DNA of 64,000 nucleotides, taken from Thermococcus sp. AM4. Lineage in GTDB: Archaea; Methanobacteriota_B; Thermococci; Thermococcales; Thermococcaceae. The stretch is taken from positions 1,364,001-1,428,000 of the forward strand of contig NC_016051.1 in assembly GCF_000151205.2 (NCBI RefSeq), read 5' to 3'. How positions within the stretch are numbered: position 1 is the first letter of the stretch; every line of letters begins with the position of its first letter. Shown piece after piece: positions 15,486 through 62,375 of this stretch. The position numbers were made by a program, and so were the translations under genes. The notes beneath the pieces were generated by a model. The model did no database searches and was not told where the DNA came from. It worked only from the letters and a program-made list of their open reading frames with translations.

Positions 15486-15740
15486 ATGGGGGTGTTTGTC
15501 CTCTGGGGCTTCAGTTTGTTTTTAATTCTCATCCAGCTGATAGCGGTAATATGGGTCATTTACGATGTCGTTACTAAACAGCAGCGCATGCCCGATACCG
15601 AGAAGATCATATGGATAATCGTGGCGATCTTCCTCGGACTGATCGGGGCGATAGTATACTACTTCGTTGTCAAGGCCAGTGGTAAGTACGAGGGCCGTGA
15701 AGAAATCTTGGAGCAGAAAGACGACGTTAAGGTCTGGTGA
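15486..15740 (+). CDS. Small two-span membrane protein, PLDc_N-like
   Basis: About 84 residues with two hydrophobic helices (about 4-24 and 37-58) separated by a polar loop (VVTKQQRMPDTEK), then a charged tail. The pattern, with the polar loop and WIIVAIFLGLIGAIVYYFV, resembles the PLDc_N domain found alone in small archaeal membrane proteins. ATG 15486 follows GGGTGATC; the frame is open from 15453 but that start lacks a Shine-Dalgarno. Function unknown. Confidence 0.75.
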   Translation: MGVFVLWGFSLFLILIQLIAVIWVIYDVVTKQQRMPDTEKIIWIIVAIFLGLIGAIVYYFVVKASGKYEGREEILEQKDDVKVW

Positions 15741-15742
15741 CC

Positions 15743-15757
15743 GGAAGCCTTTTAGGC
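15743..15757 (+). promoter_or_regulatory. Promoter of the small RNA candidate
   Basis: GGAAGCCTTTTAGGC: a BRE-like purine stretch followed by a TATA-like CTTTTAGG centred near 15752, about 25 bases before the first base (15777) of a GC-rich foldable segment. Confidence 0.4.
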
Positions 15758-15776
15758 ATGAGCCCCAACTAACACT

Positions 15777-15847
15777 GCCCGGGGAGCACCGCCGAGGGCG
15801 GAGTCAATGAACTCGGGCGGGTTATTACCCCCTTTCATGGGGTTTTT
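15777..15847 (+). ncRNA. Candidate structured small RNA with own promoter and terminator
   Basis: A GC-rich intergenic segment with no open frame. GCCCG (15777-15781) pairs with CGGGC (15814-15818); inside, CCGCC (15789-15793) pairs with GGCGG (15797-15801) around a GAG loop. CCCC ... GGGG then TTTTT (15829-15847) looks like a terminator hairpin. The TATA-like box at 15743-15757 fits a start at 15777. The RNA would be about 70 nt. It might be an H/ACA-type or other stable archaeal RNA; I cannot place it in a family. Confidence 0.45.
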
Positions 15848-15896
15848 GGAGGTTCAATACCAGAACTGAAGGGGTTTCTTTAAGCGTCACAAATCA

Positions 15897-15950
15897 TGAG
15901 AAGTGCAAGTTCTCAAAGTTTATAAAGGTGTGAGAACCAGAAGTTCTCAC
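15897..15950. promoter_or_regulatory. TATA box flanked by two related inverted repeats
   Basis: TGAGAA-N7-TTCTCA (15897-15915), then GTTTATAAAG (15918-15927), then GTGAGAAC-N5-GTTCTCAC (15930-15950), the last an exact 8-bp inverted repeat. Both palindromes share GAGAA/TTCTC and their centres are 34 bp apart, about three helical turns, bracketing a near-symmetric TATA box. This looks like a tightly controlled promoter, yet no gene starts just downstream on either strand; the right palindrome reaches the yjbQ stop. It could alternatively act as a 3' hairpin of the thiR-yjbQ transcript. Confidence 0.5.
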
Positions 15951-16357
15951 TCACCCACAACCTGCACTATAACTCTTCTGTGCCTCGGCCTGACGTCCAG
16001 CTCGACGAAGAAAATCTGTTGCCATGTCCCGCGAACGAGCCGGCCGTTTACGACCGGAAAGCACTCGCTCGCACCGAGAAGGGTCGCGCGCAGGTGGCTG
16101 TGGGCGTTGTCATCTATCCTGTCGTGGAGGTAGCCTTTGCCTTTGGGAATGAGCTCCCTCAGGGCGCGTTTGAAGTCCTCCAGAAGGCCCGACTCGTGCT
16201 CTATCGTGACTATCGCACCCGTTGCCCCGGGAACGAAGACCAGAACGTGCCCGTTCTCGATTCCAGACTCCTCAACGACCCTCTCGACCTCTGCCGTTAT
16301 GTCCACGAGGTCTATCTCGCCCCTCGTCGAAAAGCGGAGCTCCTTGCTGTAGATCAT
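15947..16357 (-). CDS. yjbQ: YjbQ/UPF0047 family protein (thiamine phosphate synthase-like)
   Basis: UPF0047/YjbQ protein of 136 residues. Conserved features: GATGAIVTIEHESG and the His cluster NAHSHLRATLLG. Some members show weak thiamine phosphate synthase activity. ATG 16357 overlaps the stop of the upstream ThiN-domain regulator gene (ATGA), so the two are translationally coupled; the pairing supports a thiamine-related job (inference). Confidence 0.88.
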   Translation of the reverse strand: MIYSKELRFSTRGEIDLVDITAEVERVVEESGIENGHVLVFVPGATGAIVTIEHESGLLEDFKRALRELIPKGKGYLHDRIDDNAHSHLRATLLGASECFPVVNGRLVRGTWQQIFFVELDVRPRHRRVIVQVVGE

Positions 16358-17253
16358 TTTCCCACCCCCAGCTCATTGATCAGGAGCTCAACCTTTCTCA
16401 ACACGTCGAAGGGATTCCTGCCGAAGATGTAAACGACCGGCTCAACGCCGTGGCCGCCTTCATCAACGACGACATCGTAAAGATCATCGGCGAAGGGTCT
16501 GGCTATCAGAGCCATGGCCTCCTCCTCGGACATTCCCTCAGTTTTAACCCTGGCGATCCTGAGGCCGAGCCTCTCGAGGGCCTCCATTATTTCCCCGCCA
16601 TAGCGAACGTTAAGAACGCTCCTGATCTCAGGGCGAACTCGGCCGACATTCACGAGAATGCCAGCGGTGAACCGGCTGGCCCCGAACTCGGGGGGAAGCG
16701 CGTAGGGTTTTCCCTTGGCTATCGTGATCCTCCCAGGAACGGCGGCCACGTCCTCCGGGCCCTCTGGAGACGGTAATGCGTATGCAAAGTTGCTTCTGAC
16801 CTCAGGAATGAGCTCTCTAAAGCCCTCCATCCCAACGAGTCTCTTCAGGGCAACGGCCAGCTCTTCAAGGACTTCACCGCCGGTTCTGCCGGAGTATATG
16901 AAGTTGCAGGCTTCCTCGCTGATCCCCGCGTATCTGGAATAGAATTTACAGAGAAAACCGCTTCTGAAGAGCTCCACAAGACGTTTTGAAACCAGGACCA
17001 CTGCCTCCTCCCTCGTCCCGCCGTAGAGGATAAACCTCCCGACTTCCTCCGCCAGTTCATCGAGCCTCCTCGCCAGTTCCTCAGGAGGCCTCTTGTACCT
17101 CCCGGAGAGGTACTTGCTCACCATAGCCTGCGTAACCCCGAGGTAAGAGCCGATATCCGCCTGTCTTATGCCCCCATCGTAAAGGATCTCAGCGATCCGC
17201 GCCCGGAGATATGGCATTATCTCCTCAGCAATGTAAACGGAGGGAGTTCTCAT
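16354..17253 (-). CDS. thiR: ThiR-like transcription regulator (HTH + ThiN domain)
   Basis: About 299 residues: an N-terminal Cro-type helix-turn-helix (IRQADIGSYLGVTQAMVSKY, about residues 29-48) and a C-terminal ThiN-type thiamine-phosphate-synthase domain (from about FAYALPSPEGPEDVAAVPGR to the end), with the conserved RYGGEIMEALERLGL and VVDEGGHG. This is the architecture of ThiR, a regulator of archaeal thiamine genes that senses a thiamine compound through ThiN. ATG 17253 has GGTGAT four bases ahead; the longer frame to 17298 runs through the promoter. A palindrome at 17268-17290 overlaps its TATA-like box, suggesting autoregulation. Coupled to yjbQ. Confidence 0.86.
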   Translation of the reverse strand: MRTPSVYIAEEIMPYLRARIAEILYDGGIRQADIGSYLGVTQAMVSKYLSGRYKRPPEELARRLDELAEEVGRFILYGGTREEAVVLVSKRLVELFRSGFLCKFYSRYAGISEEACNFIYSGRTGGEVLEELAVALKRLVGMEGFRELIPEVRSNFAYALPSPEGPEDVAAVPGRITIAKGKPYALPPEFGASRFTAGILVNVGRVRPEIRSVLNVRYGGEIMEALERLGLRIARVKTEGMSEEEAMALIARPFADDLYDVVVDEGGHGVEPVVYIFGRNPFDVLRKVELLINELGVGK

Positions 17254-17267
17254 AACCATCACCAGCC

Positions 17268-17290
17268 AGGTTATAATCGACTTATGACCT
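17268..17290. promoter_or_regulatory. Palindromic operator candidate upstream of thiR
   Basis: AGGTTATAA-N5-TTATGACCT is an inverted repeat with eight of nine arm positions matching. It contains TTATAA and lies 15 bases above the thiR start, so a bound protein would block the promoter. ThiR itself is the natural candidate, but this is inference. Confidence 0.5.
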
Positions 17291-17334
17291 AAAGGCATTG
17301 CGGTTTTTGCTGAACAAAATTATGTCAAAAAAGA

Positions 17335-38774: not shown

Positions 38775-40787
38775 TTATTCCCCGTAATACTCTCCCCATA
38801 AGTCCCAGAGGAATGTGCCTAGTGGTTTTACCACGTATTCCGTTGTTGCTACTCCAGCAATAAATATTGCTACAAATGGTAGTGAGAGGGGATTCGAAGC
38901 TGTAGCAAATGCAACTATTGCGCCTCCTATAAAGTCTGCGAATAAGCTGGGTAATCTATCCAACCAGTCTTCTTTTTTCTCTGTAAGTGTAATAACATCG
39001 GATACAGGGTAACTTAGGTTTGTTAAATGCACTTCTACAAGGTAAGAAGGGTTTTCTAACAGTTTATGAGTATACCCCCAATGATCAAAGTAGTAGTTCG
39101 CTAGTGTGTCGTTTATTGTGAGGGTTATTGTAAAAGTCTCCCGCATGTTGGTTGGGCTTAGCGTAATTCTCTGAGCTTCAACCCCAACACTACTGGGCCC
39201 ATCGGGCCACACTCTCCTCCCTCCAAAATCAATCTCTTTCAAGTTTAGTGTAACTGTATCAGCATTTCCAAGCTCGAAGTGAACAGTACACCGGGTTGAC
39301 CTGCCCAAGGGAACAACCGCAGGGTCGCACTTCATCACTGCCCTCACCGGGTTGTCGTCTATCACCGTCAGCTTGGAGGCCGCCACCTTATGCCCGTCCA
39401 CTTCCAAGTAGAACGTTACATTGTGGTTAACAACCGGGAGAAGTGTGCTGAGGGTGGCGTTGAAGCCGTAGTGGAGTCTAAGTATCCCATCAGTGTACAT
39501 GTAGCCCTCGCCCGTCTTCACATCTCTAGGCCCTTCAAAAGCTCTCCCCTTGTAAGGCCACCAAACAACGCCACGCTCATCAACTATCTCTACATCGTGA
39601 CCTTCCCAAATGCCAATTGACTTTGGTCTTGTGTCCCAAAGCTTGATTTTTACAGCTACCTTCTCTGTTTTTCCAATGTACGCGGTACTGGGGGAGAGCT
39701 CCAACCTTCCCAAAACCTTAAGCTTATCCCTGGCGCTATATGGGAGAACCAAAAGTTCTCCCACCTTAGAATCAACGTATCCCCCATATGAGTAAAGTTC
39801 AATACGATATGTATAACTACCTTCCAAACCGTCCCAGTAAAGGGTAAAAGTCTTCATTGAATGGGATTCAACAGTCCCATTTACCCAATATGCCAGTTCA
39901 CTGCCATATTTGCCATCGACGATCAACTTCAGGCTTATATCCTTAGTGGATCTGTACGAATTAACAACCGTTACGTTGAATTCCACTGAATCACTCTCAA
40001 AGATGGGAACCGGCCCAACCTCGACTTTACTTATTTTTAGTTCCCCTCCATCAACGGGGATCAATACAGTTACTTCTCCGCCATACTCCTTTTCAAACCC
40101 CCCAAAATCCAGAATTCCTGTGAATCCGTACGTGCCCGAGCCAAGGTATTCAACTGTGCCGAGATCAACTGAGATTTGAGAATTTGGCATAATGACGACT
40201 CTCGTGTGATTAACGACTTGTCTAGGAAGGTGATCGCCATCCAGTATAGTAAAGTAAAAGGTTAATGTACCCCTAATCGGGACGGAGTTGGAGTTTGAGA
40301 TCCTTGCAACATACTTAACTTTTCCTTCTGATATTTTGAGAGCCTGTATCTTAAGATCAACTTTTCCAGGATCAATCTTTGATGTCAAGTCAATAGTCCC
40401 GTGGTAGCTCTCCATCACGAGAACCGGTGCCGTGGGAGTGGAGTAATCCGCGGGGGTGTAGGCCTGAACCGAGGCGGTCTTAACGGGATCGCCGGGCTTG
40501 GAGTTGGGGGTGTCCCCACCGGGACTGGTCACCGAGCGGTAGCGAATCTTGACTATTCCGGAAACCGAAGCCTGAAGGGAGTTTCCAACGGGAGCGATGA
40601 ACTCCGGGCTCTCAACGCTCCCCGGGCCGGTGTAGGCGATGGTGCCCACGCTGAGAACCTTACTCTCGCTGCCGTCGTTGAACTTGACCCGGTCGATCAT
40701 AACCGCCCCACCATAGACGTAGTAGTCAACCCTAACGCGGTATTTGACCGAGAGCTTGTAGGATTTGCACCCACCAGATATAAACAC
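38775..40787 (-). CDS. Large beta-sandwich island protein, first gene of the array
   Basis: Up to 670 residues. CARDB/Ig-like beta-sandwich segments (LKISKVEVGPVPIFESDSVE, LKVLGRLELSPSTAYIGKTE), a Cys pair (CDPAVV...CTVHF), the shared C-terminal module (ITLSPTNMRETFTITLTIND ... VSDVITLTEKKEDW) and a hydrophobic tip (FIGGAIVAFATASNPLSLPF and VAIFIAGVATTEYVV). No signal peptide. The GTG at 40787 lies on a TATA-like box; an ATG at 40700 behind GGTGGGG is an alternative start. First 400 bases are GC-rich, the rest AT-rich. The tail motif follows out of frame. Confidence 0.66.
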   Translation of the reverse strand: MFISGGCKSYKLSVKYRVRVDYYVYGGAVMIDRVKFNDGSESKVLSVGTIAYTGPGSVESPEFIAPVGNSLQASVSGIVKIRYRSVTSPGGDTPNSKPGDPVKTASVQAYTPADYSTPTAPVLVMESYHGTIDLTSKIDPGKVDLKIQALKISEGKVKYVARISNSNSVPIRGTLTFYFTILDGDHLPRQVVNHTRVVIMPNSQISVDLGTVEYLGSGTYGFTGILDFGGFEKEYGGEVTVLIPVDGGELKISKVEVGPVPIFESDSVEFNVTVVNSYRSTKDISLKLIVDGKYGSELAYWVNGTVESHSMKTFTLYWDGLEGSYTYRIELYSYGGYVDSKVGELLVLPYSARDKLKVLGRLELSPSTAYIGKTEKVAVKIKLWDTRPKSIGIWEGHDVEIVDERGVVWWPYKGRAFEGPRDVKTGEGYMYTDGILRLHYGFNATLSTLLPVVNHNVTFYLEVDGHKVAASKLTVIDDNPVRAVMKCDPAVVPLGRSTRCTVHFELGNADTVTLNLKEIDFGGRRVWPDGPSSVGVEAQRITLSPTNMRETFTITLTINDTLANYYFDHWGYTHKLLENPSYLVEVHLTNLSYPVSDVITLTEKKEDWLDRLPSLFADFIGGAIVAFATASNPLSLPFVAIFIAGVATTEYVVKPLGTFLWDLWGEYYGE

Positions 40788-61403: not shown

Positions 61404-62324
61404 ATGCCGATGAGATGCAAGTTCTGTGAGAAACCGGCCTTCATCAAGCTCCACTACCCAAAAATGTACCTCTGCGAGGAGCACTTTAGGGAGTACTTCG
61501 AGAGAAAGGTAAAGCGGACGATAGAGAGGTATAAAATGCTCAAGCCGGACGAGAGGGTTCTGGTCGTTGTCAGCGGCGGAAAGGACTCGGCCGTTACCGC
61601 TTACATCCTCAAGAAGCTCGGCTACAACATCGAGTGCCTCCACATAAACCTCGGCATCGGCGAGTACAGCGAGAAGAGCGAGAGCTATGCTAAAAAGCAG
61701 TGCGAGGCCTTAGGCGTTCCGCTCCACATCGTCCGCGTTAAGGAGCTCCTCGGGAAGGGAATCGGGGAAGTTAGGACGAGACGGCCAACGTGCTCCTACT
61801 GTGGGCTCACCAAGAGGTACATCTTCAACAAGTTCGCCTACGACAACGGCTTCGACGCCGTAGCGACCGGCCACAACCTCGACGACGAGGCGAGCTTTAT
61901 ATTCTCGAACATGATGCACTGGAACACGCAGTACCTGGCGAAGCAGGGGCCGGTGACGCCGAGCCAGTTCAACGGCAAGCTCGTGAAGAAGGTCAAACCG
62001 CTGTACGAGGTCACCGAGAGGGAGGTTGTTGCCTACGCCCTCGCCAACGGCATCGATTACATGATGGAGGAGTGCCCGCACGCGGTCGGAGCGACGACGA
62101 TTGAGTACAAGGAGATACTCAACGAGATGGAGGAGAAGAGGCCCGGGACGAAAATCAACTTCGTCAAGGGCTTCCTGCGGAAGAAGCACCTCTTCGAGGC
62201 AGAGCTCCAGGAGGCGGAGCTGAGGGAGTGCAGGGTCTGCGGAATGCCGTCGAGCGGTGAGGTCTGCTCGTTCTGTAGGTTCTGGAGGCTTGAGAAGCCG
62301 ATAGACTTCAAGCTGAACCGATGA
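61404..62324 (+). CDS. ttuA: tRNA m5U54 2-sulfurtransferase TtuA-like
   Basis: About 306 residues. N-terminal zinc ribbon (CKFCEKPAF ... YLCEEH), PP-loop VVVSGGKDSAVTAYI, the Fe-S Cys pair in RPTCSYCGLTKRY, a third Cys in MEECPHAVG, and a C-terminal zinc ribbon (CRVCG ... CSFC). This matches TtuA, which makes 2-thio-m5U54 in thermophile tRNA. ATG 61404 follows GGTGGGA; GCCTTTTAAC (61361-61370) is its TATA box. The stop lies in the C-like box of the sRNA candidate. Confidence 0.9.
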   Translation: MPMRCKFCEKPAFIKLHYPKMYLCEEHFREYFERKVKRTIERYKMLKPDERVLVVVSGGKDSAVTAYILKKLGYNIECLHINLGIGEYSEKSESYAKKQCEALGVPLHIVRVKELLGKGIGEVRTRRPTCSYCGLTKRYIFNKFAYDNGFDAVATGHNLDDEASFIFSNMMHWNTQYLAKQGPVTPSQFNGKLVKKVKPLYEVTEREVVAYALANGIDYMMEECPHAVGATTIEYKEILNEMEEKRPGTKINFVKGFLRKKHLFEAELQEAELRECRVCGMPSSGEVCSFCRFWRLEKPIDFKLNR

Positions 62325-62375
62325 GGAGACTTTCGGGCCCTGAGACGTGATGAGGGCCGCCCTATCCGAGGTCTC
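62318..62375 (+). ncRNA. Candidate C/D-box sRNA or kink-turn terminator at the ttuA 3' end
   Basis: CCGATGA (62318-62324), 15-nt spacer, CTGA (62340-62343), GAC, GTGATGA (62347-62353), 12-nt spacer, CCGA (62366-62369), GGTCTC. GAGAC (62342-62346) can pair with GTCTC (62371-62375), placing a perfect C box and a D-like box at the base of a kink-turn. A T-run follows (62376-62386), so the element may also end the ttuA transcript. Same order and spacing as at 49955. Confidence 0.42.

Follow-up and report, generated by a model that had tools for sequence, protein, structure and literature searches.

The twin-palindrome box at positions 15897-15950 of the window (the whole stretch of 64,000 nucleotides from Thermococcus sp. 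AM4 that was analysed) is quite probably the orphaned promoter-operator of a class-1 AAA_14/DUF4143-type ATPase gene that has been lost here. In 32 of the 36 genomes that encode this ATPase, its start codon lies 9 bp past the edge of the same box (counted from coordinates), and the box is therefore taken to be the TATA promoter of that gene, with flanking operators. By homology, the window copy would likewise be an ATPase promoter-operator, reading in the plus direction and orphaned at this locus.

The box and its surroundings in the window genome

The features of the locus are listed below, in window coordinates.

15897-15949, no strand assigned: whole class-1 twin-palindrome box (palindrome, TATA box, palindrome)
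15897-15915, no strand assigned: P2, the distal (upstream) putative operator palindrome, TGAGAA-GTGCAAG-TTCTCA; spacing the same in relatives
15918-15927, plus strand: TATA box GTTTATAAAG, with the core TTTATAAA at 15919-15926
15930-15950, no strand assigned: P1, the proximal putative operator palindrome, GTGAGAAC-CAGAA-GTTCTCAC, as read from the sequence
15947-15949, minus strand: yjbQ stop codon, within the right palindrome; this junction is replaced by the ATPase gene in 14 relatives
15947-16357, minus strand: yjbQ (UPF0047, TIGR00149), convergent neighbour of the box
16354-17298, minus strand: gene for a ThiR-like HTH plus ThiN protein, upstream of yjbQ
15740-15835, plus strand: RNA candidate, a conserved block on the side of the box away from yjbQ

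P1 and P2 share one common 19-bp form, TGAGAA-N7-TTCTCA, with centres at 15906 and 15940, 34 bp apart, and TTTATAAA between them; in relatives, P1 covers the expected transcription start. The original prediction had described this geometry correctly to the base, and its statement that the plus direction runs antisense to yjbQ is borne out by the yjbQ open frame on the minus strand (15947-16357). The overlap of the yjbQ stop codon with the right palindrome had gone unmentioned there. It had also described an operator geometry at a TATA box with no obvious gene, which holds for this genome but not for relatives, where a gene in the plus direction starts 9 bp past the right palindrome. In the window, no ATPase start codon is found 9 bp beyond the proximal palindrome, which marks the box as an orphan copy rather than a working ATPase promoter. 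No Rfam family was found at the box.

The motif is rare in this genome. Within the window, TGAGAA-N7-TTCTCA with at most two mismatches is not enriched (three found, 3.87 expected), and the 2.09-Mb genome holds only three exact copies, two of them in the box and the third inside an ABC-ATPase-like open frame; the whole box occurs once in the genome. Outside the box, eight sites in the genome come within one mismatch of the motif, and all of them fall inside open frames of 161-595 aa, so that no regulon is visible; a wider TGAGAA regulon was rejected on this ground. The original prediction had counted an absence of further motif copies against itself: this genome has no other non-coding copy, while copies are present across genomes. 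A related-looking palindrome, GGAGAACCAAAAGTTCTCC, is found at 39743-39761 inside an open frame, probably by chance.

Class-1 ATPase genes and the yjbQ locus across Thermococcaceae

The full twin pattern, with at most three mismatches, occurs in 56 of 94 Thermococcaceae genomes, mostly as one copy each, and the reversed control in none of the 94. Among the 20 loci first examined, eight have the box directly before an AAA_14 gene of ∼392 codons. The class-1 ATPase is present in 36 of the 94 genomes, at 65-100% identity; a three-palindrome array touches the class-1 start codon in G106, G111 and G116, and G109 has a partial class-1 match and no box that could be found. In the window genome (G000) there is no class-1 ATPase, only paralogs at 51, 46 and 45% identity. 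The box-ATPase unit mostly adjoins yjbQ in Thermococcus, and does not do so in other genera where positions were comparable. At three loci from more distant genera (L192, L193 and L194), the class-1 array consists of three palindromes and two TATA boxes, with the last palindrome at the start codon.

A search with the DNA of 15740-15960 returned the palindrome part and the RNA candidate separately in other genomes. The RNA candidate (15740-15835) is present in nearly all same-genus relatives searched, with 78-97% identity and apart from the box, and has no Rfam family above threshold. The window also contains the C/D-box RNA sR47 (RF01131), at 62317-62371.

The class-1 protein matches AAA_14 (Pfam PF13173, E 1.9e-24) and PDC-S01, a PADLOC candidate defence family (6e-29), and a class-2 paralog matches DUF4143 (PF13635, E 1.5e-9 over residues 227-358) and, weakly, HTH_29 (0.03). 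The classes share their Walker motifs as well as a D...ExK pattern at the C-terminus, and differ in a segment near residues 250-280 that is HTH-like by sequence; by eye and from general knowledge, I take this segment to be a helix-turn-helix and the D...ExK pattern to be nuclease-like. Because an AlphaFold2 prediction of the ATPase, built on 11 class-1 sequences, reached a pLDDT of only 37, the helix-turn-helix is a reading of the sequence, and no fold claim is based on that prediction. A search of the PDB by sequence gave no match to the ATPase, NCBIfam gave no name for it and viral contigs no relative; plasmids yielded five remote ATPases, at 24-30% identity.

I then compared sixty yjbQ loci from 59 genomes. 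A box at the yjbQ stop, with no class-1 ATPase, is the state of 18 genomes including that of the window, two of these with a spacing of 35. The box lies ∼20 bp further from the yjbQ stop at three loci, and is decayed at three (G074, G079 and G080, with 6-7 mismatches). At 14 loci the ATPase is arranged tail to tail with yjbQ, which places the box at the far end of the ATPase gene, ∼1.2 kb from yjbQ. In three genomes (G035, G086 and G092) the yjbQ stop carries a box and there is a box-ATPase unit as well, the ATPase is further away at three loci, ten loci have no box, and five are cut by contig ends or lie on other contigs. On a tree of a neighbouring gene, built from the 44 genomes in which 880 bases or more of this marker were available, solo and ATPase states alternate, with 12 changes when only these two states are counted. 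The tree of yjbQ itself carries too weak a signal to decide for or against allele exchange.

Several of these loci show further details. In G086 (L095 and L140) there are three box copies, two of which are identical and near contig ends, and may be an assembly duplicate. By eye, a truncated VapBC-like pair apparently lies between the first box and the ATPase of G035 (L123, ∼805-1085), and open frames similar to it lie near the ATPase at L056 (3152-3891). Beside the solo box of G004 ends a gene (L042:1570-2724) for a 384-aa protein with no Pfam match, and in G017 a similar gene likewise ends next to the solo box.

Paralogous arrays and a model of autoregulation

The three ATPase paralogs of the window genome are preceded by palindromes that keep the same step and alternate with TATA boxes, with other half-sites. 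Five half-site classes were distinguished in all: TGAGAA, TTTGCA, TGTAAA and TTGGTA at a 34-bp step, and TGCCGA at a 35-bp step. When the regions upstream of paralogs were scanned for palindrome pairs, 44 of 63 loci scored at least 22; among the controls, 4000 box-masked random windows gave at most 19, 86 regions upstream of open frames at most 18 and 1240 shuffles at most 21, and windows with the box scored up to 28. Arrays are absent at 14 of the 88 classified ATPase genes, namely seven remote ones (∼33%), L237, L238, the truncated L205 and L257, and the group L209/L212/L220, whose members each show a single palindrome by eye. Two class-2 arrays, at G001:C1:1027252 (L271) and G013:C1:937098 (L272), have no ATPase within ∼2 kb and adjoin the end of another gene, and orphaning is therefore not unique to class 1.

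Mapped on the ATPase tree, the half-site class changes seven times for 81 proteins (those of at least 250 aa and with no stops, among the 88 classified), against a mean of 48.3 after shuffling. This agreement suggests that the individual ATPases bind and control the arrays of their own genes, but it would also be expected from shared inheritance of gene and promoter alone. The stronger point is that, within one genome, the paralogs hold the layout but vary the half-site.

As far as was examined, the arrays share their inheritance with no regulator other than the ATPase, and a model of autoregulation, taken by itself, therefore appears reasonably likely. By means of its HTH-like segment, the ATPase would bind its own array to either side of the TATA box, and the bound protein would then block TBP/TFB and polymerase, and thus repress its own gene. 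Loss of the ATPase gene at the present locus would have left the box fused to the yjbQ stop. The window box probably keeps basal promoter activity, though with neither a gene nor a cognate ATPase, and is most likely a recent relic.

Fate of the lone boxes and comparison with known systems

The relic reading is strained by the conservation of the boxes that have no ATPase. In 19 such boxes the arms show 0.077 differences per site and the spacers 0.381, compared with 0.039 and 0.330 in 25 ATPase boxes, a count that leaves out G007 and G014 (spacing 35) and three decayed boxes. Five genomes of 99% completeness (G073, G036, G010, G004 and G082) have no ATPase homolog at E 1e-30, yet their boxes have 0-2 arm mismatches; the strain comes from the kept arms and from the well-kept boxes of the homolog-less G073, G036 and G082. 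An alternative is that the box has been kept for a function that needs no ATPase, namely the control of an antisense RNA that would run into yjbQ if read in the plus direction, or into the RNA candidate if read in the minus direction, much as the original prediction proposed. The TATA core TTTATAAA is intact in 18 of the 19 boxes compared, their arms are about five times less variable than their spacers, intact boxes occur in genomes that are ∼99% complete and have no class-1 ATPase (G073 and G010, for example), and the accessible text of a T. kodakarensis study reports antisense transcription start sites with BRE/TATA motifs (PMC4247193). On the other hand, there is no known gene or transcript downstream of the box, G004, G017, G026 and G034 have two to five differences in the arms and none in the spacers, and the box is decayed or absent in other genomes that lack the ATPase. 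The accessible parts of RNA papers on T. kodakarensis and P. abyssi contain nothing on this locus for the terms searched. I regard such a retained antisense function as unlikely. Mean arm mismatches are 1.00 in boxes with no ATPase and 0.48 in ATPase boxes, a marginal difference (p = 0.05), and G006 has a degraded box (three mismatches, TATA changed) before a broken ATPase gene. I think that recent and repeated gene loss is likelier than kept function, but by a small margin.

It has also to be considered that the box serves as a recombination site in addition, with ATPase cassettes entering or leaving between copies, and single boxes as scars or empty sites. Two directly repeated boxes surround the ATPase of G035, and the window box combines both, letter for letter: the palindrome on its yjbQ side is identical to that of the first G035 box, and the one on the far side to that of the second. 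Such a pattern would be expected of an att site, where hybrid left and right sites flank an insert and an empty site matches them, but only two substitutions separate the window box from the second G035 box, so that drift explains the likeness equally. The alternation of solo and ATPase states on the marker tree, and the solo box sitting at the same position right after the yjbQ codons in 18 genomes, also fit recombination, but a TGAG match of the yjbQ stop to the box edge, or allele exchange between strains, would give the same junction. Just three genomes have two boxes, no recombinase was seen, and a recombination site appears quite unlikely. A broader scenario, in which the AAA_14/DUF4143 ATPases with their nuclease-like C-terminus would be self-targeting cassettes that use their own phased array for silencing and for cassette gain and loss, with lone boxes as empty sites ready for re-entry and kept by repeated traffic between strains, is a long shot.

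Two further readings attach the box to its neighbours in the window rather than to the ATPase. Folding of the plus strand as RNA gives a well-folded region (z = −3.3) in which both palindromes form hairpins. The right one overlaps the yjbQ stop, and the two might act at the 3' end of the yjbQ mRNA, in stability or termination. Good folding is, however, expected of any palindrome, and in a comparison of 44 boxes a single pair is compensatory and 29 are broken; the outer palindrome has G or C at both of its positions 7 and 13 in 40 of the 44 boxes but complementary bases there in only four, a pattern that fits DNA recognition. Moreover, the box of 14 ATPase-bearing genomes stands in front of the ATPase gene, at a distance of ∼1.2 kb from yjbQ, and no hairpin followed by a T run, nor any other terminator-like site, is found at the box. 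The RNA hairpin reading is very improbable and was rejected. Control of thiamine-related genes by ThiR, whose gene lies beside yjbQ, is hardly credible. The ThiR-like gene is 400 bp away, and in P. furiosus a regulatory role is predicted for ThiR according to the accessible text of PMC10746257, but other genera, where both could be located, have the box before the ATPase and far from yjbQ, and half-sites differ at the ATPase paralogs. A ThiR operator should recur upstream of several thiamine genes; the window genome has the box at one non-coding place, with no second non-coding copy. ThiR was thus judged an unlikely binder, as the box goes with the ATPase rather than with yjbQ in other genera, and an early idea, which assigned the box to a lost thiamine transporter, was dropped once the ATPase appeared in front of it.

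With the box read as an orphaned ATPase promoter-operator, a palindrome pair that had lacked an explanation becomes a control system open to test, in an archaeal ATPase family that resembles a PADLOC candidate defence family. Five half-site classes in one layout form a natural specificity series for an AAA ATPase as a putative sequence-specific repressor of its own gene, and the orphan copies show at what pace a promoter is kept or decays after gene loss. In the accessible parts of the literature on Thermococcales, AAA_14/DUF4143 ATPases, palindromes and autoregulation, no description of these arrays was found.

The AAA_14/DUF4143 ATPases and PDC-S01 are the families matched here (class 1 matches AAA_14 and PDC-S01, class 2 DUF4143), but no operator arrays were found described for them, and the defence role is putative here. 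Iteron arrays, known from plasmid replication and partition systems, are likewise evenly spaced repeats beside the gene of their presumed binding protein; the present repeats differ from these in being chromosomal and interleaved with TATA boxes, with no replication function seen. Archaeal autoregulated promoters with operators at the TATA box or BRE are known, for example in the Phr, Lrp and TrmB families, and there, as here, the palindromes lie where a bound protein would block TBP/TFB or polymerase at the promoter of the regulator itself. The arrays described here differ from those promoters: their two to three copies keep a constant step of 34-35 bp, every gap contains a TATA box, the gene behind them encodes an AAA ATPase, and the half-site differs with each paralog class.
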